The position numbers and the translations under genes are program-made. From Nannobrachium achirus (Eukaryota > Chordata > Actinopteri > Myctophiformes > Myctophidae), in NCBI GenBank assembly GCA_963921795.1, contig OY997642.1, forward strand, positions 38,110,840 through 38,174,839: DNA of 64,000 nt, read 5' to 3'. The notes below the pieces were generated by a model. It had not been told where the DNA came from and ran no database searches. It saw nothing but the letters and a program-made list of their open reading frames with translations. This document shows positions 647 to 58,336 of the stretch, piece after piece (position 1 is the first letter of the stretch; every line of letters starts with the position of its first letter).

Positions 647-725
647 ATACTAGAATTGACAGAGTCAATTTTGACAAGTGTGCCTGCAGCGCGCTAAACG
701 CGCGACCTCGTGCGGCGGTTCGGAC

Positions 726-1440
726 TGCCTGAGCACGCAAGTCCGGCTTGGTGCCGTCCCCCCACCTCGGCGCCTGACTCTGGCTGGAGCTTTACAAAAA
801 AAAAAAAAAAAAAAAAAGCCAGCTGCTGAGCTGACCTGCGCAGCGTGCGTGCGTGCGTGCGTGCGTTCGTTCGTTCAGTGCAATGTGAATGCATGTGACT
901 TAGGAAGATAGATAGATAGATACGTAATAAACATGTTTTGGTACAAGCTCAACTAAAAGGAGATCCTAGTAATGTTTTTGGCTTATTTCCACAGGGAAGT
1001 CATTCACGAATGAACTAATTATTGATATATGACTGTCATAGGTATACAGTGTCATTGACAGTACAGTCACTGGTACAAGCTCAACTAAAAGGTGATCCTA
1101 GAAAAGACTAAGTCAGGGGGAAACAATTTAAAAAATAAAACAATAAAAACAGCCGATCTACAAGGCTGCATGTGGGCTTGTGGATCAGATGATGAATACA
1201 TTTTAATACTAACAATACTTTTACTCTTTGGCATTTTTACTTATACTCTTTGGTATTTTGAGTACATTTACTCAAATATACTTTTACTTCACAATGATTA
1301 CTTTTGATACTTTAACAATACTTTTACTCTTTGGTATTTTTGAGTACTTTTACTCAAATATGTTTTACTTCATAATGAGTACTTTTATATTCTTAATGAG
1401 TACATTTACTTTTAATACTTCATTGATACTTTGTGCCCTT
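726..1440 (+). mobile_element. Composite insertion: poly-A retroposon-like end, GATA, Tol2-like TACTTTTACTC tract
   Basis: Non-satellite sequence replacing about 35 bp of M3. In order: a GC-rich stretch beginning GCCTGAGCACGCAAG and ending GGCTGGAGCTTTAC followed by a run of A (about 796-818), like the 3' end of a retroposon; (GCGT)n; (GATA)n at about 907-921; a 30-bp direct repeat GTACAAGCTCAACTAAAAGG (940-969 and 1072-1101); a hairpin GATCTACAAG / CTTGTGGATC (1155-1186); then an AT-rich tract built on TACTTTTACTC and GAGTACTTTTACTC. That last tract resembles the subterminal repeats of fish Tol2-like hAT transposons, an inference from motif style. No coding domain is seen. Confidence 0.6.
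940..1101 (+). repeat. 30-bp direct repeat pair within composite insertion
   Basis: GGTACAAGCTCAACTAAAAG and the following GRGATCCTAG occur at 940-969 and 1072-1101. The island at 52072-53531 has only the right copy. One copy and the sequence between may therefore have been lost there or gained here. Confidence 0.7.
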
Positions 1441-1630
1441 GAGAGGGTCGTTCCCCCTGAAAAACGCGTTCTGGCACGTAACGGTTACGTTTCGCGCGTT
1501 TGTGACGCCCCCTATGAGTCGAAGTGGAAATGCTTTTGGGGATCTGTTGAGTATGCCACCCCCGACCTGTGGTTGAAATTCAGTGTTGCCGCGACCTATT
1601 GTTTGTGATTTATGGCTATCGTTTGTGAAA

Positions 1631-2690
1631 CGGGCCCCTCCCGCTAACTTTGGAAGCGCGTTACGAACAAACGGTATGGACTATCGAAATATCCTTTGAC
1701 TATGTTTATTGCGTGGCTTCATAGATCATGTGTACCGGTTTTTAAGACATTTGAAGAAAATATGTAGGAAAAGGAGCAAAAAGTGTGTTTTGGACAAAAT
1801 TCAAGATGGCGGAAAATCTATCCATACGCAAATGGGCGTGGCCTATATGGGGAGATGCGTCATGACCCAAGGAATCCAGGGAAAAAATAATTTTCATTTT
1901 CCGACCTACGGTTCAAGAGTTACGGGGCAAAACGTAAAGTTGGCCGTTATAGCGCCACCATGAGGCCGAGTGATGTCATTATTTTTTGATTAATTCTTAC
2001 AATCATTATGAACCTCCTCTCCAAGTCTTGAAACTGTAGCCCCTATGGTTTGCGAGAGAAAAATAATTGAATGCGATTCCCATTATAAGTCAATGGGGAA
2101 AATTAATTCACTAATAAATTAATATCAATTAAACTATAGAACCTTTCTCTTAGCAACTTGATAGCACACCATTCCCGAGTAAGCCGGTCGATTTGAGATA
2201 TGGCGCGAGTGTATGGTGCAAAAACTGTGGGAGGAGTAGCGTGCCAAACTTTGGGGAAAAGTATGGACAGACTTAAGTAAGTAAATAAATAAATATGAGC
2301 GATAACAATAAGTCTGCCCATGCTATGCATAGGCACACTTAATGAGCGATAACAATAAGTCTGCCCATGCTATGCATAGGCACACTTAACTAGAATTGAC
2401 GGAGTCAATTTTGACAAGTGTGCCTGCAGCTCGCTAAATGCGCGACCTTGTGCGGCGGTTCGGACCGTGAGACCGTCCACCGTCGTCCGTGTTTCGTTTT
2501 GAGAGTGTCGGTCCCCCTGAAAAACGCGTTCTGGCATGTAACGGTTACGTTTCGCGCGTTTGTGACGCCCCCTATGAGTCGAAGTGGAAATGCTTTTGGG
2601 GATCTGTTGAGTATGCCACCCGCAACCTGTGGTTGAAATTTAGTGTCGACGCGACCTTTTGTTTGTGAGTTAGGGCAATTTTTTGCCAAA
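1631..2690 (+). repeat. U2: long unit, two 57-bp spacer elements
   Basis: The 57-bp spacer element occurs twice (about 2296-2389), the second copy missing the TAAATAAAT lead. M4 ends in the rarer GTTAGGGCAATTTTTTGCC form instead of TTTATGGCTATCGTTTGCG. Most of U2 duplicates U36. Confidence 0.88.
2674..2687. other. GGCAATTTTTTGCC hairpin at M4 end (lineage marker)
   Basis: In U2 the usual TTTATGGCTATCGTTTGCG is replaced by GAGTTAGGGCAATTTTTTGCC, which can pair GGCAA with TTGCC. The same variant precedes the landmarks at 21527, 22551, 23511, 29720, 46316 and 50364. It marks one sub-lineage of M4. Confidence 0.6.
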
Positions 2691-4089: not shown

Positions 4090-5101
4090 CGGGCCCCTCC
4101 CGCTAACTTTGGAAGCACGTTACGAATGAACGGTATAGACTATCGAAATATCCTTTGACTATGTTTATCGCGTGGCTTCATAGATCACGTGTACCGGTTT
4201 TTAAGACATTTGAAGAAAATATGTAGGAAAAGGAGCAAAAAGTGTGTTTCGGAGAAAATTCAAGATGGCGGAAAATCTATCCTGGCGCAAATGGGCGTGG
4301 CCTATATGGGGAGATGCGTCTTGGCCCAAGGAATCCGGGGAAAAAATAAGTTTAATTTTCCGACCTACGGTTCAACAGTTACAGGCCAAAACGTACACTG
4401 GGCTGTTATAGCGCCACCATGAGGCCAAATGACGCTATTATTTTTTATTTATTCCTTGTAATCATTATGAACCTCCTCTCTGAGTCTTGAAACTGTAGCC
4501 CCTATGGTTTGCGAGAGAAAAATTATTGAATGCGATTCCCATTATAAGTCAATGGGGACAGGTAAGGGTTAATTAATTTCTTAATAAATTCATATCAATT
4601 AAACTATAGAACCTTTCTCTTAGCAAGTTGATAGCACACGATTCCCGCGTAAGCCGGTCGATTTGACATATGGCGCAAGTGTGTGGTGCAAAAACTGTGG
4701 GAGGAGTAGCGTGCCAAACTTTGGGGAAATACATGTGTGTGTCCATGTCTGGCTTAAGTATGAGTGATAACAATAAGTCTGCCCATGCTATGCATAGGCA
4801 CACTTAACTAGAATTGACATGGTCAATTTTGACAAGTGTGCCTGCAGTGCGCGACCTTGTGTAGCGGTTTGGACTGTGAGACCATCCGCCAAGTTGTCTG
4901 CGTTTCGTTGTGAGAGGGTCGGTCCCCGTGAGAAACGCGTTCTGGCACGAAACGGTTACGTTTCGCGCGTTTGTGACGCCCCCTAGGGGTCGAAGTGGAA
5001 ATGCTTTTGGGGATTCGTTGAGTATGCCACCCCCGACCTGTGGTTGAAATTCAGTGTTGACTCGACCTATTGTTTGTGATTTATGGCTATCGTTTGCGAA
5101 A
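4090..5101 (+). repeat. U5: long unit, spacer type c
   Basis: Carries the marker GGGGACAGGTAAGGGTTAAT at the M2/M3 boundary, the ATACATGTGTGTGTCCATG spacer, and GATCACGTGTACC in M1 (an exact CACGTG E-box where most units have CATGTG). The motif reads CTAGAATTGACATGGTCAA, a variant shared with U28 at 26360. Confidence 0.88.
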
Positions 5102-5580: not shown

Positions 5581-5915
5581 AAAATTAATTCACTAATAAA
5601 TTAATATCAATTAAACTATAGAACCTTTCTCTTAGCAAGTTACTAGCACACGATTCCCGAGTAAGCCGGTCGTTTTGACATATGGCGCGAGTGTGTGGTG
5701 CAAAAACTGTGGGAGGAGTAGCGTGCCGAAGTTTAGAGAGTGCGGTTGTAAAGTCAATACTAGAATTGACAGAGTCAATTTTGACAAGTGTGCCTGCAGC
5801 GCGCTAAATGCGCGACCTTGTGTAGCGGTTTGGACCGTGAGACCGTCCGCCGAGTTGTCTGCGTTGCGTTGTGAGAGGGTCGGTCCCCGTGAAAAACGCG
5901 TTCTGGCACGAAACG
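5581..5915 (+). repeat. Module M3, variable spacer plus CpG-rich block (reference copy in U6)
   Basis: It starts with the AT tract AATTAATTCACTAATAAATT, passes GACATATGGCGCGAGTGTG and GGGAGGAGTAGCGTGCC, then a spacer that differs between units, then CTAGAATTGACAGAGTCAA, then a CpG-rich segment ending near GGCACGAAACG. Spacer types: (a) one to three copies of a 57-bp element with GCTATGCATAGGCACACTTA; (b) TTTAGAGAGTGCGCTTG; (c) ATACATGTGTGT plus CCATGTCTGGCTTAAG and one 57-bp-like element; (d) CAGACTTAAA; (e) CATGGACATACATACA. M3 is the module lost in medium and short units and is where all the minisatellite and transposon insertions lie. Confidence 0.82.
5760..5799. other. CTAGAATTGAC exchange-point motif (reference copy)
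   Basis: The motif CTAGAATTGACAGAGTCAA contains the perfect inverted repeat AATTGAC / GTCAATT around AGA and is followed by TTTTGACAAGTGTGCCTGCA. It is almost invariant in every M3, while the sequence to its left changes between five or more spacer types. Several large duplicated blocks in this window begin or end here (650/31827, 6722/12060, 9924/15262, 26370/62803, 33634/56691). Its role as a recombination site is inference. Confidence 0.55.
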
Positions 5916-6062: not shown

Positions 6063-7024
6063 CGGGCCCCTCCCGCTAACTTTGGAAGCGCGTTACGAAC
6101 GAACGGTACGGACTATCAAAATATCCTTTGACTATGTTTATCGTGTGGCTGCATAGATCATGTGTACCGGTTTTTAAGACATTTGAAGAAAATATGTGGG
6201 AAAAGGAGCAAAAAGTGTGTTTTGGAGAAAATTCAAGATGGCGGAAAATCTACCCATACGCAAATGGGCGTGGCCTATATGGGGAGATGCGTCTTGACCC
6301 AAGGAATCCAGGGAAAAAACAATTTTCATTTTCCGATCTACGGTTCAAGAGTTACGGGGCAAAACGTAAAGTGAGCCGTTATAGCGCCACCATGAGGATG
6401 GGTGGTGTAATTATTTTTCAATTTATTCTTAAAATCATTATGAATCTCCTCTCCGAGGTTTGAAACTGTAGCCCCTATGGTTTGCGAGAGAAAAATACTT
6501 GAATGTGACTTTTTGCATTGTCCCATTATAAGTCAATGGGGAAAAATTAATTCACTAATAAATTAATATCAATTAAACTATAGAACCTTTCTCTTAGCAA
6601 GTTACTAGCACACGATTCCCGAGTAAGCCGGTCGTTTTGACATATGGCGCGAGTGTGTGGTGCAAAAACTGTGGGAGGAGTAGCGTGCCGAAGTTTAGAG
6701 AGTGCGGTTGTAAAGTCAATACTAGAATTGACAGAGTCAATTTTTACAAGTGTGCCTGCAGCGCGCTAAATGCGCGACCTTGTGCGGCGGTTCGGACCGT
6801 GAGACCGTCCGCCGAGTCGTCCGCGTTTCGTTGTGAGAGGGTCGGTCCCTGTGAAAAACGCGTTCTGGCACGAAACGGTTACCTTTCGCGCGTTTGTGAC
6901 GCCCCCTAGGGGTCGAAGTGGAAATGCTTTTGGGGATTCCTTGAGTATGCCACCCCCGACCTGTGGTTGAAATTCAGTGTTGCCGCGACCTATTGTTTGT
7001 GATTTATGGCTGTTGTTTGCGAAA
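6063..7024 (+). repeat. U7: long unit, spacer type b
   Basis: 962 bp, nearly identical to U6 through M1-M2 and the spacer. From CTAGAATTG at 6722 rightward it becomes the start of the 3.2-kb duplicated block C, with TTTTTACAAG and ACGGTTACCTTTCG as markers. Confidence 0.88.
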
Positions 7025-8102
7025 CGTGCCCCTCCCGCTAACTTTGGAAGCGCGTTACGAACGAACGGTACGGACTATCGACATATCCTTTGACTATGTT
7101 TATCGCGTGGCTTCATAGATCATGTGTACCGGTTTTTAAGACATTTGAAGAAAATATGTAGGAAAAGGAGCAAAAAGTGTGTTTTGGAGAAAATTCAAGA
7201 TGGCGGAAAAACTACCCATACGCAAATGGGCGTGGCCTATATGGGGAGATGCGTCATGACCCAAGGAATCCAGGGAAAAAAGAATTTTCATTTTCCGACC
7301 TACGGTTCAACAGTTACAGGCCAAAACGTAAACTGGGCTGTTATAGCGCCACCATGAGGCCAAATGACACTATTATTTTTCATTTAATCCTTGAAATCAT
7401 TATGAACCTCCTCACCAAGTCTTGAAACTGTAGCCCCTATGGTTTGCGAGAGAAAAATAAATGAATGTGAGTTTTGCGATTCCCATTATAAGTCAATGGG
7501 GAGAAATTAATGCACTAATAAATTAATATCAATTAAACTATAGAACCTTTCTCTTAGCAACTTGATAGCACACCATTCCCGAGTAAGCCGGTCGATTTGA
7601 CATATGGCGCGAGTGTTTGGTGCGAAAACTGTGGGAGGAGTAGCGTGCCAAACTTTGGGGAAAAGTATGGACAGACTTAAGTAAGTAAATAAATAAATAT
7701 GAGCGATAACAATAAGTCTGCCCATGCTATGCATAGGCACACTTAATAAATATGAGCGAGAACAATAAGTGTCCCCATGCTATGCATAGGCACACTTAAC
7801 TAGAATTGACAGAGTCAATTTTGACAAGTGTGCCTGCAGCTCGCTAAATGCGCGACCTCGTGCGGCGGTTCGGACAGTGAGACCGTCCGCCGAGTCGCCT
7901 GCGTTTCGTCGTGAGAGGGTCGGTCCCCGTGAAAAACGCGTTTTGGCACGAAACGGTTACGTTTCGCGCGTTTGTGACGCCCCCTAGGGGTCGAAGTGGA
8001 AATGCTTTTGGGGATCCGTTGAGTATGCCACCCCCGACCTGTGGTTGAAATTCGGTGTTGACTCGACCTATTGTTTGTGATTTATGGCTATCGTTTGCGA
8101 AA
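7025..8102 (+). repeat. U8: long unit, two 57-bp spacer elements
   Basis: 1078 bp, identical in layout to U14 (offset 5338). The two spacer elements read GATAACAATAAGTCTGCCC and GAGAACAATAAGTGTCCCC. Confidence 0.88.
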
Positions 8103-8731
8103 CGTGCCCCTCCCGCTAAGTTTGGAAGCGCATTACGAACGAACGGTATGGACTATCGGAATATCCTTTGACTATGTTTATCGCGTGGCTTCATAGATCA
8201 AGTGTACCGGTTTTTAAGACATTTGAAGAAAATATGTAGGAAAAGGAGCAAAAAGTGTGTTTTGGAGAAAATCAAAGATGGCGGAAAATCTATCCCTACG
8301 CAAATGGGCGTGGCCTATATCGAGAGATGCGTCTTGACCCAAGGAATCCAGGGAAAAAATAATTTTAATTTTCCGATCTACGGTTCAAGAGTTACGGGGC
8401 AAAACGTAAAGTGGGCCGTTATAGCGCCACCATGAGGATGAGTGATGTAATTATTTTTTGATTTATTCTTAAAATCATTATGAATCTCCTCTGCAAGGTT
8501 TGAAACTGTAGCCCCTATGCTTTGCGAAAGAAAAATACTTGAATGTGAATTTCTGCTTTCTCCCATTATAAGTCAATGGGGACAATTACGTTTTGCGCGT
8601 TTGTGACGCCCCCTACGGGTCGAATTGGAAACGCTTTTGGGGATTCCTTGAGTAAGCCACCCGCAGCCTGTGGTTGAAATTCATTGCTGACTCAACGTTT
8701 TGTTTGTGATTTATGGCTATTATTTGCAAAA
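8103..8731 (+). repeat. U9: medium unit (M1-M2-M4)
   Basis: 629 bp. M2 ends AATGGGGACAA and continues directly as TTACGTTTTGCGCG of M4, so M3 is missing with a TTA junction. M2 carries CTATGCTTTGCGAAAG, a diagnostic change shared with U15, U30 and U51. Confidence 0.88.
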
Positions 8732-9168
8732 CGGGCCCCTCCCGCTAACTCTGGAAGCCCGTTACGAACGAATGGTATGGACTATAGACATATCCCTTGA
8801 CTATGTTCATTGCATGGGTTAGTAGATCATGTGTACCCATTTTTGTGACATTTGAAGAAAATATGTAGGAAAAAATGCAAAAAGTGTGTTTTGGAGAAAA
8901 TTTGAAATGGTGAAAAATCTTCCCATGTGCAAATTGGCGTGTCCTATATGGAGAGATGCGTCGTGACCCAAGGAATCCAGGGAAAAAATAATTTTAATTC
9001 TCCGACCTATGGTTCAAGAGTTACGAGGCAAGTGGTCCATTATAGCGCCACCATGTGGCCAATTGGAAATGCTTTTGGGGATCGTTGAGTATGCCACCCC
9101 CGACCTGTGGTTGAAATTCAGTGTTGACTGGACCTTTTGTTTGTGATTTATGGCTATTGTTTGCAAAA
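8732..9168 (+). repeat. U10: short beta unit
   Basis: 437 bp. M1 has TGAAATGGTGAAAAATC (no YY1-like core) and ATGTAGGAAAAAATGC. It always follows a medium unit of the U9 type. Confidence 0.88.
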
Positions 9169-10404
9169 CGGGCCCCTACCGCTAACTTTGGAAGCGCGTT
9201 ACGAACGAACGTAATGGACTATCGCAATATCCCTTGAGTATGTTCATTGCATGGGTTCATAGATCATGTGTACCGTTTTTTGTGCAATTTGAAGAAAATA
9301 TGTCGGAAAAGGAACAAAAAGTGTGTTTTGGAGAAAATTCAAGATGGCGGAAAATCTATCCAGGCGCAAATGGGCGTGGCCTATATCGGGAGATGCGTCT
9401 TGACCCAAGGAATCCAGGGAAAAAATAATTTTAATTTTCCGACCTACGGTTCAACAGTTACAGGCCAAAACGTAAAGTGGGCTGTTATAGCGCCACCATG
9501 AGGCCGAGTGATGTAATTATTTTTTGATTAATTCTTACAATCATTATGAACCTCCTCTCCAAGTCTTGAAACTGTAGCCCCTATGGTTTGCGAGAGAAAA
9601 ATAATTGAATGTGAATTTTTGCTTTCTCCCATTATAAGTCAATGGGGACAATTTAATTCACTAATAAATTAATATCAATTAAACTATAGAACCTTTCTCT
9701 TAGCAAGTTACTAGCACACCATTCCCGAGTAAGCCGGTCGATTTGACATATGGCGCGAGTGTGTGTTGCAAAAACTGTGGGAGGAGTAGCGTGCCAAACT
9801 TTGGGGAATCGTATGGACAGACATAAATAAATAAATAAATATGAGCGAGAACAATAAGTGTCCCATGCTATGCATAGGCACACTTAACTAGAATTGACAG
9901 AGTCAATTTTGACAAGTGTGCCTGCAGCGCGCTAAATGCGCGACCCCGTGCGGCGGTTCGGACCGTGCGTGAGACCGTCCGCCGAGTCGTCAAGGTACAG
10001 TACACTACAGCACAGTAAGCTACAGCACAGACAGTACAGAAGATACAGTACACTACAATACAGTAAGGTACAGTACACTACAGCAGAGTAAGGTACAGTA
10101 CAGTACAGTACAGTACAGTACAGTACAGTACAGTACAGTACAGTACAGAAGACAGAGTACAATACAGTACGGTACGGTACAGTACAATACAGTGCAGTAA
10201 AGTACAGCACAGCTCAATCGCAATGCCTGTGTCTGAAACGCGTTCTGCCACGAAACGGTTACGTTTGGCGCGTTTGTGACGCCCCCTAGGGGTCGAAGTG
10301 GAAATGCTTTTGGGGATTCGTTGAGTATGCCACCCCCGACCTGTGGTTGAAATTCGGTGGTGACTCGACTTATTGTTTGTGATTTATGGCTATCGTTTGT
10401 GAAA
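9169..10404 (+). repeat. U11: long unit with pentanucleotide tract
   Basis: One 57-bp spacer element, then CTAGAATTG, then GAGTCGTC passes into a (TACAG)n-like tract at 9991-10212. The satellite resumes at GAAACGCGTTCTGCC, so part of M3 is replaced. Confidence 0.87.
9991..10212. repeat. Pentanucleotide (TACAG)n minisatellite, tract 1
   Basis: Starts AAGGTACAGTACACTACAG and includes a near-perfect run of CAGTA units around 10095-10145. Replaces part of M3 in U11. Ends at CAGCACAGCTCAATCGC, a short non-satellite tail, before the array resumes. Confidence 0.9.
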
Positions 10405-11411: not shown

Positions 11412-12362
11412 CGGGCCCCTCCCGCTAACTTTGGAAGCGCGTTACGAACGAACGGTACGGACTATCGAAATATCCTTTGACTATGTTTATGGCATGGCTT
11501 CATAGATCATGTGTACTGGTTTTTAAGACATTTGAAGAAAATATGTAGGAAAAGGAGCAAAAAGTGTGTTTTGGAGAAAATTAAAGATGGCGGAAAATCT
11601 ATCCTGGCGCAAATGGGCGTGGCCTATATGGGGAGATGCGTCTTGACCCAAGGAATCCAGGGAAAAAATAATTTTAATTTTCCGACCTACGGTTCAAGAG
11701 TTACGGGGCAAAACATAAAGTTGGCCGTTATAGCGCCACCATGAGGCCGAGTGATGTAATTATTTTTTGATTAATTCTTACAATCATTATGAACCTCCTC
11801 TCCAAGTCTTGAAACTGTAGCCCCTATGGTTTGCGAGAGAAAAATAATTGAATGCGATTCCCATTATAAGTCAATGGGGAAAATTAATTCACTAATAAAT
11901 TAATATCAATTAAACTATAGTACCTTTCTCTTAGCAAGTTGATAGCACACGATTCCCGCGTAAGCCGGTCGATTTGACATATGGCGCGAGTGTGTGGTGC
12001 AAAAACTGTGGGAGGAGTAGCGTGCCAAACTTTTGGGGAATTGCATGGACAGACTTAAACTAGAATTGACAGAGTCAATTTTTACAAGTGTGCCTGCAGC
12101 GCGCTAAATGCGCGACCTTGTGCGGCGGTTCGGACCGTGAGACCGTCCGCCGAGTCGTCCGCGTTTCGTTGTGAGAGGGTCGGTCCCTGTGAAAAACGCG
12201 TTCTGGCACGAAACGGTTACCTTTCGCGCGTTTGTGACGCCCCCTAGGGGTCGAAGTGGAAATGCTTTTGGGGATTCCTTGAGTATGCCACCCCCGACCT
12301 GTGGTTGAAATTCAGTGTTGCCGCGACCTATTGTTTGTGATTTATGGCTGTTGTTTGCGAAA
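11412..12362 (+). repeat. U13: long unit, spacer type d
   Basis: Spacer is TTGCATGGACAGACTTAAA directly before CTAGAATTG at 12060. To the right of that base the sequence becomes identical to U7-U8, marking the left edge of block C copy 2. Confidence 0.88.
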
Positions 12363-13440
12363 CGTGCCCCTCCCGCTAACTTTGGAAGCGCGTTACGAAC
12401 GAACGGTACGGACTATCGACATATCCTTTGACTATGTTTATCGCGTGGCTTCATAGATCATGTGTACCGGTTTTTAAGACATTTGAAGAAAATATGTAGG
12501 AAAAGGAGCAAAAAGTGTGTTTTGGAGAAAATTCAAGATGGCGGAAAAACTACCCATACGCAAATGGGCGTGGCCTATATGGGGAGATGCGTCATGACCC
12601 AAGGAATCCAGGGAAAAAAGAATTTTCATTTTCCGACCTACGGTTCAACAGTTACAGGCCAAAACGTAAACTGGGCTGTTATAGCGCCACCATGAGGCCA
12701 AATGACACTATTATTTTTCATTTAATCCTTGAAATCATTATGAACCTCCTCACCAAGTCTTGAAACTGTAGCCCCTATGGTTTGCGAGAGAAAAATAAAT
12801 GAATGTGAGTTTTGCGATTCCCATTATAAGTCAATGGGGAGAAATTAATGCACTAATAAATTAATATCAATTAAACTATAGAACCTTTCTCTTAGCAACT
12901 TGATAGCACACCATTCCCGAGTAAGCCGGTCGATTTGACATATGGCGCGAGTGTTTGGTGCGAAAACTGTGGGAGGAGTAGCGTGCCAAACTTTGGGGAA
13001 AAGTATGGACAGACTTAAGTAAGTAAATAAATAAATATGAGCGATAACAATAAGTCTGCCCATGCTATGCATAGGCACACTTAATAAATATGAGCGAGAA
13101 CAATAAGTGTCCCCATGCTATGCATAGGCACACTTAACTAGAATTGACAGAGTCAATTTTGACAAGTGTGCCTGCAGCTCGCTAAATGCGCGACCTCGTG
13201 CGGCGGTTCGGACAGTGAGACCGTCCGCCGAGTCGCCTGCGTTTCGTCGTGAGAGGGTCGGTCCCCGTGAAAAACGCGTTTTGGCACGAAACGGTTACGT
13301 TTCGCGCGTTTGTGACGCCCCCTAGGGGTCGAAGTGGAAATGCTTTTGGGGATCCGTTGAGTATGCCACCCCCGACCTGTGGTTGAAATTCGGTGTTGAC
13401 TCGACCTATTGTTTGTGATTTATGGCTATCGTTTGCGAAA
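12363..13440 (+). repeat. U14: long unit, duplicate of U8
   Basis: 1078 bp, matching U8 at offset 5338, including the two spacer elements. Confidence 0.88.
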
Positions 13441-14069
13441 CGTGCCCCTCCCGCTAAGTTTGGAAGCGCATTACGAACGAACGGTATGGACTATCGGAAT
13501 ATCCTTTGACTATGTTTATCGCGTGGCTTCATAGATCAAGTGTACCGGTTTTTAAGACATTTGAAGAAAATATGTAGGAAAAGGAGCAAAAAGTGTGTTT
13601 TGGAGAAAATCAAAGATGGCGGAAAATCTATCCCTACGCAAATGGGCGTGGCCTATATCGAGAGATGCGTCTTGACCCAAGGAATCCAGGGAAAAAATAA
13701 TTTTAATTTTCCGATCTACGGTTCAAGAGTTACGGGGCAAAACGTAAAGTGGGCCGTTATAGCGCCACCATGAGGATGAGTGATGTAATTATTTTTTGAT
13801 TTATTCTTAAAATCATTATGAATCTCCTCTGCAAGGTTTGAAACTGTAGCCCCTATGCTTTGCGAAAGAAAAATACTTGAATGTGAATTTCTGCTTTCTC
13901 CCATTATAAGTCAATGGGGACAATTACGTTTTGCGCGTTTGTGACGCCCCCTACGGGTCGAATTGGAAACGCTTTTGGGGATTCCTTGAGTAAGCCACCC
14001 GCAGCCTGTGGTTGAAATTCATTGCTGACTCAACGTTTTGTTTGTGATTTATGGCTATTATTTGCAAAA
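13441..14069 (+). repeat. U15: medium unit, duplicate of U9
   Basis: 629 bp with the same M2-to-M4 junction (GGGGACAATTACG) as U9. Confidence 0.88.
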
Positions 14070-14506
14070 CGGGCCCCTCCCGCTAACTCTGGAAGCCCGT
14101 TACGAACGAATGGTATGGACTATAGACATATCCCTTGACTATGTTCATTGCATGGGTTAGTAGATCATGTGTACCCATTTTTGTGACATTTGAAGAAAAT
14201 ATGTAGGAAAAAATGCAAAAAGTGTGTTTTGGAGAAAATTTGAAATGGTGAAAAATCTTCCCATGTGCAAATTGGCGTGTCCTATATGGAGAGATGCGTC
14301 GTGACCCAAGGAATCCAGGGAAAAAATAATTTTAATTCTCCGACCTATGGTTCAAGAGTTACGAGGCAAGTGGTCCATTATAGCGCCACCATGTGGCCAA
14401 TTGGAAATGCTTTTGGGGATCGTTGAGTATGCCACCCCCGACCTGTGGTTGAAATTCAGTGTTGACTGGACCTTTTGTTTGTGATTTATGGCTATTGTTT
14501 GCAAAA
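14070..14506 (+). repeat. U16: short beta unit, duplicate of U10
   Basis: 437 bp. Same junction and same beta M1 as U10. Confidence 0.88.
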
Positions 14507-15519
14507 CGGGCCCCTACCGCTAACTTTGGAAGCGCGTTACGAACGAACGTAATGGACTATCGCAATATCCCTTGAGTATGTTCATTGCATGGGTTCATAG
14601 ATCATGTGTACCGTTTTTTGTGCAATTTGAAGAAAATATGTCGGAAAAGGAACAAAAAGTGTGTTTTGGAGAAAATTCAAGATGGCGGAAAATCTATCCA
14701 GGCGCAAATGGGCGTGGCCTATATCGGGAGATGCGTCTTGACCCAAGGAATCCAGGGAAAAAATAATTTTAATTTTCCGACCTACGGTTCAACAGTTACA
14801 GGCCAAAACGTAAAGTGGGCTGTTATAGCGCCACCATGAGGCCGAGTGATGTAATTATTTTTTGATTAATTCTTACAATCATTATGAACCTCCTCTCCAA
14901 GTCTTGAAACTGTAGCCCCTATGGTTTGCGAGAGAAAAATAATTGAATGTGAATTTTTGCTTTCTCCCATTATAAGTCAATGGGGACAATTTAATTCACT
15001 AATAAATTAATATCAATTAAACTATAGAACCTTTCTCTTAGCAAGTTACTAGCACACCATTCCCGAGTAAGCCGGTCGATTTGACATATGGCGCGAGTGT
15101 GTGTTGCAAAAACTGTGGGAGGAGTAGCGTGCCAAACTTTGGGGAATCGTATGGACAGACATAAATAAATAAATAAATATGAGCGAGAACAATAAGTGTC
15201 CCATGCTATGCATAGGCACACTTAACTAGAATTGACAGAGTCAATTTTGACAAGTGTGCCTGCAATGCACGACCTTGTGTAGCGGTTTGGACGGTGAGAC
15301 CATCCGCCAAGTTGTCTGTGTTTCGTTGTGAGAGGGTCCGTCCCCGTGAAAAACGCGTTCCGGCACGAAACGGTTACGTTTTACGCGTTTGTGACGCCCC
15401 CTAGGGGTCGAAGTGGAAATGCTTTTGGGGATTGGTTGAGTATGCCACCCCCGACCTGTGGTTGAAATTCAGTGTTGACTCGACCTATTGTTTGTGATTT
15501 ATGGCTATCGTTTGCGAAA
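14507..15519 (+). repeat. U17: long unit, right end of block C
   Basis: Matches U11 up to TGTGCCTGCA at 15262 and then diverges (ATGCACGACC against GCGCGCTAAA). It carries no minisatellite. Confidence 0.88.
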
Positions 15520-23510: not shown

Positions 23511-24452
23511 CGGGCCCCTCCCGCTAACTTTGGAAGCGCGTTACGAACGAACGGTATGGACTATCAAAATATCCTTTGACTATGTTTATTGCGTGGCTTC
23601 ATAGATCATGTGTACCGGTTTTTAAGACATTTGAAGAAAATATGTAGGAAAAGGAGCAAAAAGTGTGTTTTGGACAAAATTCAAGATGGCGGAAAATCTA
23701 TCCCTACGCAAATGGGCGTGGCCTATATGGGGAGATGCGTCTTGACCCAAGGAAGCCAGGGAAAAAATAATTTTCATTTTCCGATCTACGGTTCAAGAGT
23801 TACGGGGCAAAACGTAAAGTTGGCCGTTATAGCGCCACCATGAGGCCGAGTGATGTAATTATTTTTTGATTAATTCTTACAATCATTATGAACCTCCTCT
23901 CCAAGTCTTGAAACTGTAGCCCCTATGGTTTGCGAGAGAAAAATAATTGAATGCGATTCCCATTATAAGTCAATGGGGAAAATTAATTCACTAATAAATT
24001 AATATCAATTAAACTATAGAACCTTTCTCTTAGCAACTTGATAGCACACCATTCCCGAGTAAGCCGGTCGATTTGACATATGGCGCGAGTGTGTGGTGCA
24101 AAAACTGTGGGAGGAGTAGCGTGCCAAACTTTGGGGAAAAGTATGGACAGACTTAAGTAAGTAAATATGAGCGATAACAATAAGTCTGCCCATGCTATGC
24201 ATAGGCACACTTAACTAGAATTGACAGAGTCAATTTTGACAAGTGTGCCTGCAGCGCGCTGAATGTGCGACCTCGTGCGGCGGTTCGGACCGTGAGACTG
24301 TCCACCGAGTCGCCCGCGTTTCGTTGTGAGAGGGTCGGTCCCCGTGAAAAACGCGTTTTGGCACGAAACGGTTACGTTTCGCGCGTTTGTGACGCCCCCT
24401 AGGGGTCGAAGTGGAAATGCTTTTGGGGATTCGTTGAGTATGCCACCCCCGA

Positions 24453-24960
24453 GGTACAGTACAGCACACTAAGGTACAGTACAGTATTACAGTTCACTAC
24501 AGTAAGGCACAGAACAGTACCATAAAGTACAGTACACTACCATCCAGTTCATTACAGAAGATACAGTACACTACGGTACAGTAAGGTACAGCACAATACA
24601 GTACAATAAGGTACAGTAAACCACGGCACAGTAAGGTACAGCACAAAACCGTACAGAAGATACAGTACACTACAATACAGTAAGGTACTGTACACTACAG
24701 CACAGTAAGGTACGGTACAGTACAGTACAGTACAGTACAGTACAGAAGATACAGTACAATACAGTAAGATACGGTACAGTGCAATACAGTGCAGGTACGG
24801 TACAGTACAATACAGTGCAGTAAAGTACAGCACAGTAAGGTAAAGTACAGCACAGTGCAGTAAGGTACAGCACAGTAAGGTATAGCACAGTACAATAACA
24901 TACAGTACAGTACAGTAAAGTACAATACAGCACACTAAGGTACAGTACACTACAGTAAGG
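24453..24960. repeat. Pentanucleotide minisatellite, tract 2
   Basis: 508 bp of degenerate TACAG/CACTA/TAAGG pentamers. Translation in the minus frames gives Tyr-Cys-Thr-Val-Leu repeats, which are not genes. Confidence 0.92.
24756..24763 (+). other. Paralogous empty site of the hAT insertion
   Basis: Single ACAATACA within GATACAGTACAATACAGTAA, with the same flanks on both sides as the occupied sites in U36 and U60. It shows the pre-insertion state. A second one lies at 61189-61196. Confidence 0.8.
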
Positions 24961-25203
24961 AAGCAAGCGGTTCAAACTGTGAGACCATCCTCCGAGTCGT
25001 CTGCGTTTCGTCGTGAGAGGGTCGGTCCCCGTGAAAAACGCGTTCTGGCACGAAGCGGTTACGTTTCGTGCGGTTGTGACGCCCCCTAGGGGTCGAAGTG
25101 GAAATGCTTTTGGGGAATCGTTGAGTATGCCACCCCCGACCTGTGGTTGAAATTCAGTGTTGACTCGACCTATTGTTTGTGATTTATGGCTATTGTTAGC
25201 GAA

Positions 25204-25641
25204 CGGGCCCCTCCCGCTAACTTTGGAAGCGTGTTACGAACGAACGGTACGGATTATCGAGATATCCTTTGACTATGTTTATCGCATGGCTTTAAAGATC
25301 ATGTGTACCGGTTTTTAAGACATTTGAAGAAAATTTGTAGCAAAAGGAGTAAAAAGTGTGTTTAGGAGAAAATTCAAGATGGCGGAAAATCTTCCCATGT
25401 GCAAATTGGCATATCCTATATGGAGAGATGCGTCGTGACCCAAGGAATCCAGGGAAAAAAGAATTGTAATTCTGTGACCTACGGTTCAAGAGTTACGAGG
25501 CAAGCGGTCCGTTATAGCGCCACCATGTGGCCAAGTGGAAATGCTTTTTGGGATTCGTTGAGTATGCCACCCCCGAACTGTGGTTGAAATTCAGTGTTGA
25601 ATGGACCTTTTGTTTGTGATTTATGGCTATTGTTTGCAAAA
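25204..25641 (+). repeat. U27: short alpha unit
   Basis: 438 bp, equal to U4 at offset 21552 except rare substitutions such as TTGGCATATCC for TTGGCGTATCC. Confidence 0.88.
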
Positions 25642-26667
25642 CGGGCCCCTCCCGCTAACTTTGGAAGCACGTTACGAATGAACGGTATAGACTATCGAAA
25701 TATCCTTTGACTATGTTTATCGCGTGGCTTCATAGATCACGTGTACCGGTTTTTAAGACATTTGAAGAAAATATGTAGGAAAAGGAGCAAAAAGTGTGTT
25801 TCGGAGAAAATTCAAGATGGCGGAAAATCTATCCTGGCGCAAATGGGCGTGGCCTATATGGGGAGATGCGTCTTGGCCCAAGGAATCCGGGGAAAAAATA
25901 AGTTTAATTTTCCGACCTACGGTTCAACAGTTACAGGCCAAAACGTACACTGGGCTGTTATAGCGCCACCATGAGGCCAAATGACGCTATTATTTTTTAT
26001 TTATTCCTTGTAATCATTATGAACCTCCTCTCTGAGTCTTGAAACTGTAGCCCCTATGGTTTGCGAGAGAAAAATTATTGAATGCGATTCCCATTATAAG
26101 TCAATGGGGACAGGTAAGGGTTAATTAATTTCTTAATAAATTCATATCAATTAAACTATAGAACCTTTCTCTTAGCAAGTTGATAGCACACGATTCCCGC
26201 GTAAGCCGGTCGATTTGACATATGGCGCAAGTGTGTGGTGCAAAAACTGTGGGAGGAGTAGCGTGCCAAACTTTGGGGAAATACATGTGTGTCTCCATGT
26301 CTGGCTTAAGTATGAGTGATAACAATAAGTCTGCCCATGCTATGCATAGGCACACTTAACTAGAATTGACATGGTCAATTTTGACAAGTGTGCCTGCAGT
26401 GCAGCTCCATAAATGCGCGACCTCGTGCAGCGGTTTTGACCGTGAGACCGTCCGCCGAGTCGTCTGCGTTTTGTTGTGAGAGGGTCGGTCCCCGTGAAAA
26501 ACGCGTTCCGGCACGAAACGGTTACGTTTGGCGCGTTTGTGACGCCCCCTAGGGGTCGAAGTTGAAATGCTTTTGGGGATTCGTTGAGTATGCCACCCCC
26601 GACCTGTGGTTGAAATTCAGTGTTGACTCGACGTATTGTTTGTGATTTATGGCTATTGTTTGCGAAA
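25642..26667 (+). repeat. U28: long unit, spacer type c
   Basis: Same cassette as U5. The spacer reads GTGTGTCTCCATG. Homology with 62075 onward ends at 26370 inside CTAGAATTGAC. Confidence 0.88.
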
Positions 26668-31178: not shown

Positions 31179-32807
31179 CGTGCCCCTCCCGCTAACTTTG
31201 GAAGCGCGTTACGAACAAACGGTATGGACTATCGAAATATCCTTTGACTATGTTTCTCGCAAGGCTTCAAAGATCATGTGTACCGGTTTTTAAGACATTT
31301 GAAGAAAATATGTAGGAAAAGGAGCAAAAAGTGTGTTTTGGAGAAAATTCAAGATGGCGGAAAATCTACCCATACGCAAATGGGCGGGGCCTATATGGGG
31401 AGATGCGTCATGACCCAAGGAATCCAGGGGAAAAAAAATTTTCATTTTCCGAGCTACGGTTCAAGAGTTACAGGCCAAAACGTAAACTGGGCTGTTATAG
31501 CGCCACCATGAGGCCAAATGACACTATTATTTATTATTTAATCCTTGCAATCATTATGAACCTCCTATCCAAGTCTTGAAACTGTAGCCCCTATGGTTTG
31601 CGAGAGAAAAATAATTTAATGCGATTCCCATTATAAGTCAATGGGGAAAATTAATTCACTAATAAATTAATATCAATTAAACTATAGAACCTTTCTCTTA
31701 GCAACTTGATAGCACACCATTCCCGAGTAACCCGGTCGGTTTGACATATGGCGCGAGTGTGTGGTGCAAAAACTGTGGGAGGAGTAGCGTGCCAAACTTT
31801 TGGGGAATTGCATGGACAGACTTAAACTAGAATTGACAGAGTCAATTTTGACAAGTGTGCCTGCAGCGCGCTAAACGCGCGACCTCGTGCGGCGGTTCGG
31901 ACTGCCTGAGCACGCAAGTCCGGCTTGGTGCCGTCCCCCCACCTCGGCGCCTGACTCTGGCTGGAGCTTTACAAAAAAAAAAAAAAAAAAAAAAGCCAGC
32001 TGCTGAGCTGACCTGCGCAGCGTGCGTGCGTGCGTGCGTGCGTTCGTTCGTTCAGTGCAATGTGAATGCATGTGACTTAGGAAGATAGATAGATAGATAC
32101 GTAATAAACATGTTTTGGTACAAGCTCAACTAAAAGGAGATCCTAGTAATGTTTTTGGCTTATTTCCACAGGGAAGTCATTCACGAATGAACTAATTATT
32201 GATATATGACTGTCATAGGTATACAGTGTCATTGACAGTACAGTCACTGGTACAAGCTCAACTAAAAGGTGATCCTAGAAAAGACTAAGTCAGGGGGAAA
32301 CAATTTAAAAAATAAAACAATAAAAACAGCCGATCTACAAGGCTGCATGTGGGCTTGTGGATCAGATGATGAATACATTTTAATACTAACAATACTTTTA
32401 CTCTTTGGCATTTTTACTTATACTCTTTGGTATTTTGAGTACATTTACTCAAATATACTTTTACTTCACAATGATTACTTTTGATACTTTAACAATACTT
32501 TTACTCTTTGGTATTTTTGAGTACTTTTACTCAAATATGTTTTACTTCATAATGAGTACTTTTATATTCTTAATGAGTACATTTACTTTTAATACTTCAT
32601 TGATACTTTGTGCCCTTGAGAGGGTCGTTCCCCCTGAAAAACGCGTTCTGGCACGTAACGGTTACGTTTCGCGCGTTTGTGACGCCCCCTATGAGTCGAA
32701 GTGGAAATGCTTTTGGGGATCTGTTGAGTATGCCACCCCCGACCTGTGGTTGAAATTCAGTGTTGCCGCGACCTATTGTTTGTGATTTATGGCTATCGTT
32801 TGTGAAA
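31179..32807 (+). repeat. U35: long unit interrupted by composite insertion
   Basis: M1 carries GGGCGGGGCC and AGGGGAAAAAAAATTTTC. Spacer type d ends at CTAGAATTG (31827), where identity with U1 begins. Satellite resumes near 32617. Confidence 0.87.
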
Positions 32808-33517
32808 CGGGCCCCTCCCGCTAACTTTGGAAGCGCGTTACGAACAAACGGTATGGACTATCGAAATATCCTTTGACTATGTTTATTGCGTGGCTTCATA
32901 GATCATGTGTACCGGTTTTTAAGACATTTGAAGAAAATATGTAGGAAAAGGAGCAAAAAGTGTGTTTTGGACAAAATTCAAGATGGCGGAAAATCTATCC
33001 ATACGCAAATGGGCGTGGCCTATATGGGGAGATGCGTCATGACCCAAGGAATCCAGGGAAAAAATAATTTTCATTTTCCGACCTACGGTTCAAGAGTTAC
33101 GGGGCAAAACGTAAAGTTGGCCGTTATAGCGCCACCATGAGGCCGAGTGATGTCATTATTTTTTGATTAATTCTTACAATCATTATGAACCTCCTCTCCA
33201 AGTCTTGAAACTGTAGCCCCTATGGTTTGCGAGAGAAAAATAATTGAATGCGATTCCCATTATAAGTCAATGGGGAAAATTAATTCACTAATAAATTAAT
33301 ATCAATTAAACTATAGAACCTTTCTCTTAGCAACTTGATAGCACACCATTCCCGAGTAAGCCGGTCGATTTGAGATATGGCGCGAGTGTATGGTGCAAAA
33401 ACTGTGGGAGGAGTAGCGTGCCAAACTTTGGGGAAAAGTATGGACAGACTTAAGTAAGTAAATAAATAAATATGAGCGATAACAATAAGTCTGCCCATGC
33501 TATGCATAGGCACACTT
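31827..33517 (+). repeat. Duplicated block A, copy 2
   Basis: Contains the second composite insertion. After 33517 it continues with extra 57-bp elements absent from copy 1. Confidence 0.85.
31903..32617 (+). mobile_element. Composite insertion, second copy
   Basis: Matches 726-1440 at offset 31177, with the same junctions to satellite on both sides, so it was copied with flanking satellite and not inserted independently. Confidence 0.65.
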
Positions 33518-33632
33518 AATAAATAAATATGAGCGAGAACAATAAGTGTCCCCATGCTATGCATAGGCACACTTAATAAATAAATATGAGCGATAACAAT
33601 AAGTCTGCCCATGCTATGCATAGGCACACTTA
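33472..33632 (+). repeat. 57-bp spacer element, three tandem copies
   Basis: ATGAGCGATAACAATAAGTC starts at 33472, 33529 and 33586 (period 57). Each copy ends CTATGCATAGGCACACTTAA and contains the 10-bp palindrome CTATGCATAG. Other units have one or two copies (for example 2296-2389, 7699-7799, 40973-41078). Confidence 0.88.
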
Positions 33633-33720
33633 ACTAGAATTGACAGAGTCAATTTTGACAAGTGTGCCTGCAGTGCGCGACCTTGTGCAGCGGTTTGGAC
33701 GGTGAGACAATCCGCCAAGT

Positions 33721-33872
33721 CAAGGTACAGTACACTACGGCACAGTAAGGTACAGCACAGAACAGTACAGAAGATACAGTACACTACAATACAGTAAGGT
33801 ACTGTACACTACAGCACAGTAAGGTACGGTACAGTACAGTACAGTACAGTACAGAAGATACAGTACAATACA
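33721..33872. repeat. Pentanucleotide minisatellite, tract 3 left of hAT
   Basis: Follows GCCAAGT of M3 directly. The tract continues at 35264 after the transposon. Confidence 0.9.
33865..33872 (+). other. Target-site duplication, left (hAT copy 1)
   Basis: ACAATACA, repeated exactly at 35264-35271. Confidence 0.9.
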
Positions 33873-34090
33873 CAGTGTTGGGAAAGTTCACTTTAAAAAT
33901 GAACTAGTTCAAGTTCAAGTTCAGAACTTCTAAAATGAACTAGTTCATTTTTAGTTCATAATTCCCCATTATGAACTAAAGTTCATGGTTCCCCAAAATG
34001 AACTACATAGTTCTTTTTTAGTTCTTTTTTTAACCATATTTTTTTTTTATACTTTTGGCAATTCAAAAAAAAGGGGAAAAAATATATAAA

Positions 34091-34152
34091 GGTCTATATA
34101 TATATATATTATATATATAGACCTAAACATTTATATATTATATAAATGTTTA
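34091..34152. other. Two adjacent AT-rich perfect palindromes in hAT copy 1
   Basis: GGTCTATATATA / TATATATAGACC (34091-34123) directly abuts TAAACATTTATA / TATAAATGTTTA (34124-34152). Each has 12-bp arms. Copy 2 has them at 57148-57209. Confidence 0.75.
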
Positions 34153-34600
34153 GACGTTTCTGCATGCTATTATTTGTCAAAATTATTGACTCAACCCATA
34201 TTATATAGAAACACACACAGCAATAATTTCATCCAACTTAACATTGAGGTGCCCACAACATCAGTCTTCCTGCACCCTTATTGTGAAGGACTGCATGTAA
34301 TAACCATGTTATTGTCTCATTGTGTGAAATATCATAATATTCAAAAACAAATATTTGACTCCAATTGATTCCCCACACAGTATTGACTTGATATAGCAAT
34401 ACAAAATAATATATATATTACACAGCAGTTGTGGGAAAACTAAGACATTGTTCAAAAAACACAATTCCGATTTTGGTAATAGGGCAAAAAATATATTTTT
34501 CTTCAATCTACTGTCTTGATACTCTAACCAAAATTGTGCTATAGACCATAATCTACAAATTGGAAGTGAAAGAAACTTTAACACACATTTGAAATGAAAA

Positions 34601-34673
34601 CAAAAAATTACATGTACAGGGAACCCCACTAGAAAAAAACAAAAAGTTACATGTACAAGGAACCCCACTAGAA
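34601..34673 (+). repeat. 34-bp direct repeat pair in hAT copy 1
   Basis: ACATGTACARGGAACCCCAC with flanking A-rich sequence occurs at 34601-34634 and 34640-34673, 39 bp apart. Confidence 0.7.
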
Positions 34674-34723
34674 GGCAGACGTTTCTAAACCGTGCACAGC
34701 ATGATCCGCGTTGGTTAAAATAG

Positions 34724-34781
34724 CTGATCTACAAGCTCACGTTGTCTCGTGGATGCGACGCGTTGTGAGCTTGCAGATCAG
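34724..34781. other. Inverted repeat in hAT copy 1
   Basis: CTGATCTACAAGCTCAC (34724-34740) pairs with GTGAGCTTGCAGATCAG (34765-34781) with one mismatch across 24 bases. A related hairpin lies in the composite insertion at 1155-1186. Confidence 0.7.
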
Positions 34782-34847
34782 ATATTCTCGCCGTGCAACA
34801 CACATAGGACAAAGTATAGTCAGTCAGGCTTGCGAGACGAGGAGGAG

Positions 34848-34850
<3 letters not shown>

Positions 34851-34934
<84 letters not shown>
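34851..34934. repeat. (CA)42 microsatellite in hAT copy 1
   Basis: 84 bp of uninterrupted CA. It explains the Thr-His and Cys-Val rich open frames across it. Confidence 0.95.
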
Positions 34935-34936
<2 letters not shown>

Positions 34937-35263
34937 GCAGGAGCAGAGTGCAGAGTAGACAGCACTGCATATCAACGGAGCCTCCGACGAACGTTCACGA
35001 GGCACTGCTGCGTGCAGTGCCTACTATTGGAGCACGTGAATGAAAAGAGAGACGAGAGGAGCAGAGGACAGACGACCGCGGAGGCGCGGACCGCCGCATG
35101 AACGGCCGACGAACGCCGACGAACGTCGTTCACGGGCGTCAGAATGACCGCGTTCGACAATATCGTTCATCAAGCGAAAACAATTACGTTCAGTTCACGT
35201 TCGCCCAAAATATGAACGTGTTCATGAACGATCGTTCTTTGAACGCGTTCGGGTACAACACTG

Positions 35264-35271
35264 ACAATACA
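35264..35271 (+). other. Target-site duplication, right (hAT copy 1)
   Basis: ACAATACA, matching 33865-33872. Confidence 0.9.
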
Positions 35272-35483
35272 GTAAGGTACGGTACAGTGCAATACAGTGC
35301 AGGTACGGTACAGTACAATACAGTGCAGTAAAGTACAGCACAGTAAGGTTAAGTACAGTACAGTGCAGTAAGGTACAGCACAGTAAGGTATAGCACAGTA
35401 CAATAACATACAGTACAGTACAGTACAGTAAAGTACAGTACAGCACACTAAGGTACAGTACAGTACAGTACACTACAGTAAGG
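35264..35483. repeat. Pentanucleotide minisatellite, tract 3 right of hAT
   Basis: Continuation after the transposon, ending AAGGAAGCAAGCAGTTC. Related to the right half of tract 2. Confidence 0.9.
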
Positions 35484-35727
35484 AAGCAAGCAGTTCAAAC
35501 TGTGAGACCATCCTCCGAGTCGTCTGTGTTTCGTTGTGAGAGGGTCGGTCCCCGTGAAAAACGCGTTCTGGCACGAAGCGGTTACGTTTCTCGCGTTTGT
35601 GACGCCCCCTAGGGGTCGAAGTGGAAATGCTTTTGGGCATTCGTTGAGTATGCCACCCCCAACCTGTGGTTGAAATTCAGTGTTGACTCGACCTATTGTT
35701 TGTGATTTATGGCTTTTGTTTGCGAAA

Positions 35728-36742
35728 CGGGCCCCTCCCGCTAACTTTGGAAGCGCGTTACGAACGAAGGGTATTGACTATCAAAATATCCTTTGACTAT
35801 GTTTATCGCGTGGCTTCATAGATCACGTGTACCGGTTTTTAAGACATTTGAAGAAAATATGTAGGAAAAGGAGCAAAAAGTGTGTTTCGGAGAAAATTCA
35901 AGATGGCGGAAAATCTATCCTGGCGCAAATGGGCGTGGCCTATATGGGGAGATGCGTCTTGGCCCAAGGAATCCGGGGAAAAAATAAGTTTAAGTTTCCG
36001 ACCTACGGTTCAACAGTTACAGGCCAAAACGTACACTGGGCTGTTATAGCGCCACCATGAGGTCAAATGACGCTATTATTTTTTATTTATTCCTTGTAAT
36101 CATTATGAACCTCCTCTCCGAGTCTTGAAACTGTAGCCCCTATGGTTTGCGAGAGAAAAATAATTGAATGCGATTCCCATTATAACTCAATGGGGACAGG
36201 TAAGGGTTAATTAATTCACTAATAAATTCATATCAATTAAACTATAGAACCTTTCTCTTAGCAAGTTGATAGCACACGATTCCCGCGTAAGCCCATCGAT
36301 TTGACATATGGCGCGAGTGTGTGGTGCAAAAACTGTGGGAGGAGTAGCGTGCCAAACTTTGGGGAAATACATGTGTGTGTGTCTGGCTTAAGTATGAGTG
36401 ATAACAATAAGTCTGCCCATGCTATGCATAGGCACACTTAACTAGAATTGACAGTCAATTTTGACAAGTGTGCCTGCAGCGCGCTAAATGCGCGACCTCG
36501 TGCGGCGGTTCGGACCGTGAGACCGTCCGCCGAGTCGTCCGCGTTTCGTCGTGAGAGGGTCGGTCCCCGTGAAAAACGCGTTCTGGCACGAAACGGTTAC
36601 GTTTCGCGCATTTGTGACGCCCCCTAGGGGTCGAAGTGGAAATGCTTTTGAGGAATCGTTGAGTATGCCGCCCGCGACCTGTGGTTGAAATTCAGTGTTG
36701 ACTCGACCTATTGTTTGTGATTTATGGCTATCGTTTGCGAAA
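35728..36742 (+). repeat. U37: long unit, spacer type c
   Basis: Spacer GTGTGTGTCTGGCTTAAG lacks the CCATG copy seen elsewhere. The motif is shortened to CTAGAATTGACAGTCAA (AGA deleted). Confidence 0.87.
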
Positions 36743-41285: not shown

Positions 41286-41423
41286 TGTGCGTTTGTGACG
41301 CCCCCTACGGGTCGAATTGGAAATGCTTTTGGGGATTCGTTGAGTAAGCCACCCGCAACCTGTGGTAGAAATTCAGTGTTGACTCAACGTTTTGTTTGTG
41401 ATTTATGGCTATTGTTTGCAAAA

Positions 41424-56777: not shown

Positions 56778-56929
56778 CAAGGTACAGTACACTACGGCAC
56801 AGTAAGGTACAGCACAGAACAGTACAGAAGATACAGTACACTACAATACAGTAAGGTACTGTACACTACAGCACAGTAAGGTACGGTACAGTACAGTACA
56901 GTACAGTACAGAAGATACAGTACAATACA
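56778..56929. repeat. Pentanucleotide minisatellite, tract 4 left of hAT
   Basis: Duplicate of 33721-33872 at offset 23057. Confidence 0.9.
56922..56929 (+). other. Target-site duplication, left (hAT copy 2)
   Basis: ACAATACA, repeated at 58329-58336. Confidence 0.9.
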
Positions 56930-57904: not shown

Positions 57905-58001
<97 letters not shown>

Positions 58002-58328: not shown

Positions 58329-58336
58329 ACAATACA
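58329..58336 (+). other. Target-site duplication, right (hAT copy 2)
   Basis: ACAATACA, matching 56922-56929. Confidence 0.9.

Follow-up and report, generated by a model that had tools for sequence, protein, structure and literature searches.

The motif at which edges of duplicated blocks recur in a 64,000-nucleotide stretch of Nannobrachium achirus DNA (C5:38110840-38174839 of the 1.66-Gb genome; hereafter the window) is very probably the CTAG terminus of a rolling-circle transposon of the Helitron2/Helentron group. The window would accordingly be a head-to-tail array of short, apparently non-coding copies of such elements, and block edges would tend to fall at the motif because element ends fall there. 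This reading is based on the limits of isolated copies, the A before CTAG and the T after TTAA, three empty sites, a Helitron2 layout of the ends and the domains combined in one open reading frame (ORF). It is further supported by a 1,693-bp element that is identical in two different recipients.

A search of the window with CTAGAATTGAC revealed 45 exact copies, every one on the + strand, and 56 matches with at most one mismatch (0.87 expected). The motif had been described in the first-pass annotation as nearly invariant, and this held, its 21-bp form CTAGAATTGACAGAGTCAATT being identical in 39 of the 45 copies. A genome-wide search with the 21-bp motif gave 2,003 exact copies, and one with the reversed control gave none. 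The base before CTAG was A in all 45 window copies and in 2002 of the 2003 exact genome copies; the sole exception, which has a G, is located at G000:C6:11792177-11792198. An Rfam search of the window gave 0 matches at gathering scores and a tRNA scan gave 0 tRNAs.

Termini, target site and empty sites

One of the 45 CTAG termini is located at 5760..5799 (- strand) and consists of CTAG, the hairpin AATTGAC-TCT-GTCAATT and the inverted repeat AGGCACACTT 26 nt inside. In the Helitron2 convention this is the 3' end, read on the - strand. The corresponding 5' end is the TTAA terminus, for instance at 4761..4807 (- strand), where a tail ending in ...GCATAGGCACACTTAA on the + strand forms a hairpin that includes AAGTGTGCCT, a repeat lying 2 nt from the terminus. 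On the - strand the element thus reads TT-AAGTGTGCCT ... AGGCACACTT-GTCAA-AATTGACTCTGTCAATT-CTAG, with asymmetric 10-bp inverted repeats 2 nt from the 5' (TTAA) end and 26 nt from the 3' (CTAG) end. Folded as DNA and compared with shuffles, the 5' hairpin that includes AAGTGTGCCT reached -11.0 kcal/mol (z -5.7) and the 3' hairpin after AGGCACACTT -4.2 kcal/mol (z -2.1; 9 of 200 shuffles folded as well). Helitron2 elements are expected to have repeats at these positions (0-2 bp from the 5' end and about 20-30 bp from the 3' end) and a hairpin at either end, with the 5' repeat inside its hairpin. Of the canonical Helitron features, a 3' CTRR (here CTAG), insertion between A and T and the lack of a target duplication were found, the latter two at three empty sites. 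In contrast, the 5' end is TT and not TC, and instead of a single 3' hairpin about 11 bp inside, hairpins are present at both ends, the CTAG-side one 4 nt from the end. The subterminal repeat (AAGTGTGCCT) measures 10 bp against the Helentron figure of at least 11 bp, which is a rule for classifying families. The tail of the element carries a 4-nt microsatellite.

Isolated copies on C1, embedded in unrelated sequence, start exactly at CTAG and, where the opposite end is intact, extend to AGGCACACTTAA; in some (e.g. L009 and L016) no TTAA end was recognisable. At the other loci examined, in counts of distinct flanks that leave out L001-L008 and L024-L043, all 17 left flanks that were neither tandem nor type B (see below) ended in A, 15 of them in AA. 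Right flanks began with T in 13 of 15 cases and with A in two. In a genome-wide count that covers T, A and G as the next base, T came after 367 exact TTAA ends and A or G after 17. The window contains 32 TTAA ends, of which 25 are followed by CTAG, six by T and one by G. The flanks of L014, L015, L016, L017 and L019 place these isolated copies within another repeat, TAATGACAATATCTAAAGTGTGCTCGCC...GGCGAGCCCACAA, which has a similar palindromic tail and may mark the terminus of another such family.

Three nested insertions, all on the - strand, could be compared with paralogous empty sites. The complete 1,693-bp element at 650..2342 (block A), which contains inserted extra sequence, is nested in the tail of another element; upon its removal the remainder aligned to 44650-45001 at 98.9%, the sole gap being one of 4 bp in a microsatellite. 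The identical copy at 31827..33519 lies in a different tail, and its removal left a gap-free match of 95.5% to 47626-47982. When the element at 12060..13084, which splits a tail that has its right half at 13085-13137, was removed, the remainder matched 47626-47983 at 95.8% with one 4-bp gap. In all three the target is A|T and a target duplication is absent. The insertion sites at 12060 and 31827 may be non-independent, since their recipients are related to each other (92.8% identity over 400 and over 900 bp) and were entered at the same position. A parse with a CACTTA end and a host A|A (T|T) was dropped, as it left one extra A at the gap-free empty site. That site fits A|T in an AT-rich target and not the Helentron mode of insertion at TT in T-rich sequence. 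The 47-57-bp spacer repeats found in the window can be interpreted as the right halves of tails split by insertions. The left neighbour of the motif, which the first-pass annotation had called the most variable part of the unit, is the other end of the preceding element, often split by insertion.

A different arrangement, termed type B, precedes 14 window copies, in which an end ...TTGTAAAGTCAATA is directly followed by CTAG. Eleven are exact (left of 3350, 5760, 6722, 17097, 18050, 21224, 23210, 38414, 39376, 46975 and 54339) and three are variants of TTGTAAAGTCAATA (left of 27326, 55292 and 63758); the regular expression used caught 13 of the 14. The type B end resembles an inverted copy of the CTAG end. 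It was considered as an alternative free 5' end, but this found no support, since in the whole genome no exact type B end is followed by A, G or T, and the exact form is therefore never seen free. Type B ends fall outside the best explanation and count against a simple account.

Block edges and the motif

The edges of blocks A, C, D and E that the first-pass annotation had placed at the motif were confirmed by self-comparison. Identity begins at 649/31826 (block A), 6721/12059 (block C) and 33633/56690 (block E), in each case with one common A ahead of CTAG in both copies. The right edge of block C (9926/15264) lies 38 bases and that of block D (26371/62804) 11 bases beyond a motif start, whereas the right edge of block A (2342/33519) is not at the motif and coincides with the other terminus, AGGCACACTTAA. 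Inside the blocks identity is 100% for A (1,693 bp), C (3,166 bp) and D (1,828 bp) and 98.9% for E. In the 400 bp outside the four blocks, on either side, it is 37-95%, with left-hand values of 93% (A), 85% (C) and 37% (E).

Breakpoints were mapped and their positions compared with 500 circular shifts, using self-matches of at least 98% identity and length cut-offs of at least 800, 500, 300 and 200 bp. Edges were counted at the motif within -5..+45 (right edges) or -12..+5 (left edges) of its start. Right edges were enriched at all four cut-offs: 11 of 22 (shift mean 1.3), 28 of 63 (4.6), 39 of 121 (8.4) and 58 of 214 (15.0), values reached by no shift of the 500, in counts where self-matches are non-independent and the right-edge window is favoured by 38 conserved bp followed by a variable stretch. 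Left edges were clearly enriched for the long matches, with 4 of 22 (p 0.010) and 6 of 63 (p 0.046) at the two longer cut-offs, then 7 of 121 (p 0.084) and 8 of 214 (p 0.218); left edges of short blocks were not enriched.

In a comparison that skips the spacers and has small counts, 200-bp blocks with at most two differences were scored as nearly identical, for 861 pairs from 42 junctions at the motif and, as interior control, for 253 pairs from 23 simple units at nine positions. Of the 861 pairs, 75 were alike on the left and seven on the right of the motif, and near-identity continued across it in one (Jaccard 0.01 versus 0.11-0.30 in the interior). The result was similar with cut-offs of one (0.02 versus 0.12-0.50) and three differences per 200 bp (0.01 versus 0.09-0.45). 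The rank correlation of pairwise distances, -0.09 and -0.13 at the motif against -0.14 to +0.48 inside the unit, did not single out the motif.

The first-pass annotation had named an even spread of breakpoints along the unit as evidence against its claim. Edges at the motif exceed those of the shifts, but self-comparison also placed many block edges inside the unit, away from the motif. The motif is therefore a preferred edge of repeat blocks, one among others. The interior edges imply that recombination or internal duplication acts as well, and unequal crossing-over or gene conversion probably contributes to them. Some of them are caused by an internal duplication of 438 bp (about 1.9 copies; 3544-4386, 25096-25938, 29611-30454, 41320-42157, 43755-44597, 51081-51924, 59703-60543 and 61529-62371) that is found repeatedly in the units of ~1.44 kb. 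Arrays of GTACA-type pentamers occur within longer elements at 9995-10212, 24454-24957, 33725-33872, 35264-35480, 56782-56929, 58329-58540 and 60995-61390.

The elements of blocks C, D and E all lie on the - strand. The copy of block C at 12060..15225 comprises the nested element, the right half-tail and a second element (13138-15225), and is the likely source. The copy at 6722..9887 (3,166 bp, 100% identical) starts at CTAG in a different, type B, context without a matching left half-tail and is likely derived. Because both tail halves accompany 12060-13084 and the right half only is present in 6722-9887, block C probably moved as one piece from 12060-15225, past the CTAG at 13138, which suggests that two elements moved together. 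Copy 1 of block D (24532-26359) is part of the element at 24215..26359. Copy 2 (60965..62792; 1,828 bp, 100% identical) has an intact TTAA end, lacks the CTAG end and abuts the TTAA end of another element; it presumably arose by a truncated transposition, through early termination, or by later deletion. Block E (33634..36441) is an element of 2.8 kb that carries extra sequence close to the CTAG end, and its second copy (56691..59505, 98.9%) has a different left flank. Extra sequence just inside the CTAG end was found in five of 14 mapped intervals (650-2342, 9888-11108, 24215-26359, 33634-36441 and 56691-59505), which would be the position expected for read-through capture. In the interval 50069-54338 extra sequence is located further inside.

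Coding elements and growth of the array

At least 150 PF14214 matches are present in the genome (150 of 245 candidates were scored). Twelve of those scored reached 118.9-120.4 bits with open frames of 2,615-2,733 aa; four of these twelve belong to the C1 array (14.65-14.90 Mb), and two are located on C5 at distances of 34 and 142 kb beyond the right edge of the window. One large ORF (2,593 aa in the stretch read) contains Helitron_like_N (1134-1332), PIF1 (1877-2081) and a C-terminal Exo_endo_phos domain (2370-2565), and DUF6570 is present as well. This ORF also has the serine that marks Helentrons, located in Rep motif 2 between G and P (FQARGSPHVHM). The orientation of the large ORF is opposite to the usual convention. 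On C1 the ORF sits in an inter-motif interval of about 28.6 kb, the whole of which may be one element. When read by eye, the large ORF of L045 (2-7783) seems to contain a pair of similar stretches in its N-terminal part, with a CTCMALTFLA-like piece and an FFDSHSR-like piece in both; these gave no Pfam match and are possibly a duplicated protease-like domain.

The kinship of the large copies, which are presumed to drive the family and lie within the arrays, was compared at the DNA level for C1 (two), C2, C5 (one) and C10 (one). The two C1 copies align at 98.8% from 2 bp ahead of CTAG, and the C2 and C10 copies match the second C1 copy from the same point. Against the first C1 copy, their alignments continue into the neighbouring unit at lower identity. 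In the C5 copy, the start of which lies outside the stretch compared, the interior matches at 98.1%, and a TTAA end is present close to where its right end would be expected. Isolated copies starting at the motif, empty sites that are intact after removal of the element and a Rep/helicase/endonuclease ORF in elements with the same end together argue for a transposon end and not for an exchange point. The first-pass annotation had offered three readings: a nuclease target, a stall in replication and the fossil of an insertion site. Its naming of an insertion site or nuclease target thus holds, and that of an exchange point between satellite units does not. As the end of a rolling-circle transposon, the motif would be expected to undergo a nuclease cut.

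The array may have grown as follows. Entry would be favoured at sites like AA|T(A/G)A, and the element's own TTAA end beside the host T(A/G)A would re-form the target, while the (AAAT)n stretch in the tail would supply further ones. A re-formed target would admit a further copy the same way round, so that copies would stack in one orientation, with which the 45 co-oriented copies of the window agree. Occasional read-through of one CTAG end would allow two elements to move together, as proposed for block C, and early stopping would leave a copy without a CTAG end, as in block D. We tentatively suggest, with somewhat less than even confidence, that this is a recently and perhaps still active Helentron family that makes its own landing pads, in which insertions re-form the target at the TTAA end, arrays with coding copies grow one way and two-element transfers spread pieces of the array. 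Against a simple account stand the interior edges, the weak enrichment of short-block left edges and the distance correlations, in which the motif does not stand out. Further points against it are the C2 and C10 alignments that run on against the first C1 copy, the two of 15 right flanks that start with A and the one TTAA end of the window followed by G.

An array arising mainly as concatemers, by rolling-circle replication past the terminator and not by insertion one by one, would concern its growth and not the identity of the motif. The single orientation (45 of 45) would be expected from it, and block C is compatible with a two-element transfer. Tandem arrays have been ascribed to bypass of the termination signal (PMC4067079), and plant arrays with many 5' ends and one 3' end are described in a review (PMC12628747). 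Here, however, copies retain their own CTAG ends, neighbours are mostly different elements and not copies of one template, and nested insertions with empty sites indicate stepwise entry, which makes this origin rather unlikely as the main one.

Both remaining explanations dispense with a transposon end. An ordinary satellite that evolves through gene conversion and unequal crossing-over, with the palindrome of the motif prone to recombination, would account for the many edges interior to units and for units that are mosaics of poorly correlated adjoining stretches. It does not account for isolated copies elsewhere with the same limits, nor for block edges at both termini, beyond the motif alone, and identical elements in non-matching recipients with empty sites are hard to square with it; we consider it improbable. 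The objection, already raised in the first-pass annotation, that the motif only seems an edge owing to a hypervariable spacer on its left gains something from the conserved and then variable stretch that partly helps the right-edge statistic. Yet in the blocks of 1,693 and 3,166 bp the 100% identity extends no further than the base preceding CTAG, beside flanks of 93 and 85%, block E (98.9%) adjoins a flank of 37%, and the comparison that skips the spacer still breaks at the motif. The objection is thereby refuted for blocks A, C and E and has hardly any credibility overall.

Conversion of transposons into satellites has often been argued from relics. In the window, under the transposon-end reading, the termini of elements, their empty sites and nested insertions can be followed base by base, together with what was likely a composite transfer and what was likely an aborted one. 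Since large copies of the presumed driver are located in the same arrays, insertion beside an existing copy can be separated from unequal crossing-over. If the landing-pad reading is true, some satellite-like arrays would be living transposon colonies and not relics.

Relation to known rolling-circle transposons

The window family shares the terminal layout described for the Helitron2 group, notably Helitron-1_DR of zebrafish (Bao and Jurka, 2013, PMC3627910), with a 5' repeat 0-2 bp from the end within a hairpin, a 3' repeat 20-30 bp from the end before a hairpin and a 5' terminal T. RepHel of Helitron-1_DR is reported to be reversed as in the window family (PMC3627910), and so is the ORF of Helentron-Da-40 (PMC4067079). 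Canonical Helitrons are described as having no 5' hairpin (PMC3627910), whereas the window family has one. Helitron2 is characterized in PMC4067079 as having no endonuclease domain, which the large ORF does contain. In this respect the family resembles the Helentrons and their non-autonomous HINE/DINE-1 relatives as presented by Thomas et al. (2014, PMC4067079), with Rep, a PIF1-type helicase and an endonuclease at the C-terminus combined in a single ORF. Also reported there and found here are the GSP of Rep motif 2, a terminal palindrome, subterminal repeats and a large excess of short over coding copies. Helentrons are stated to insert at TT, in contrast to the A|T insertion and CTAG end of the window family; proto-Helentron-Pi combines CTAG with A|T, as here, but is described as having no endonuclease (PMC4067079). 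The HINE elements of oyster are reported to carry a 4-nt microsatellite in the tail, as do the elements here.

Helraiser, a canonical bat Helitron, has by its description a CTAG 3' end with a nearby terminator hairpin, as here, and a 5' TC where the window family has TT (PMC4778049). In cells, Helraiser has been reported to undergo bypass and truncation and to form exact head-to-tail junctions (PMC4778049). These are the behaviours proposed here, established for Helraiser by experiment and for the window read from sequence alone. Tandem Helitron arrays of bats, silkworm and plants (PMC4067079, PMC5876387, PMC12628747) are described, like the present one, as head-to-tail rolling-circle elements. 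The plant arrays are portrayed in the review as having many 5' ends and a single 3' end (PMC12628747), whereas here the CTAG end is retained by the repeated copies, and the arrays include large coding ones. A literature search returned no title recognised as describing this array, which is no proof of absence. In the literature compared, an endonuclease-bearing Helentron protein is not described together with Helitron-like ends (CTAG, A|T). The window family is a new family of a known kind, in which a Helentron protein of the endonuclease type occurs together with CTAG ends and insertion at A|T.
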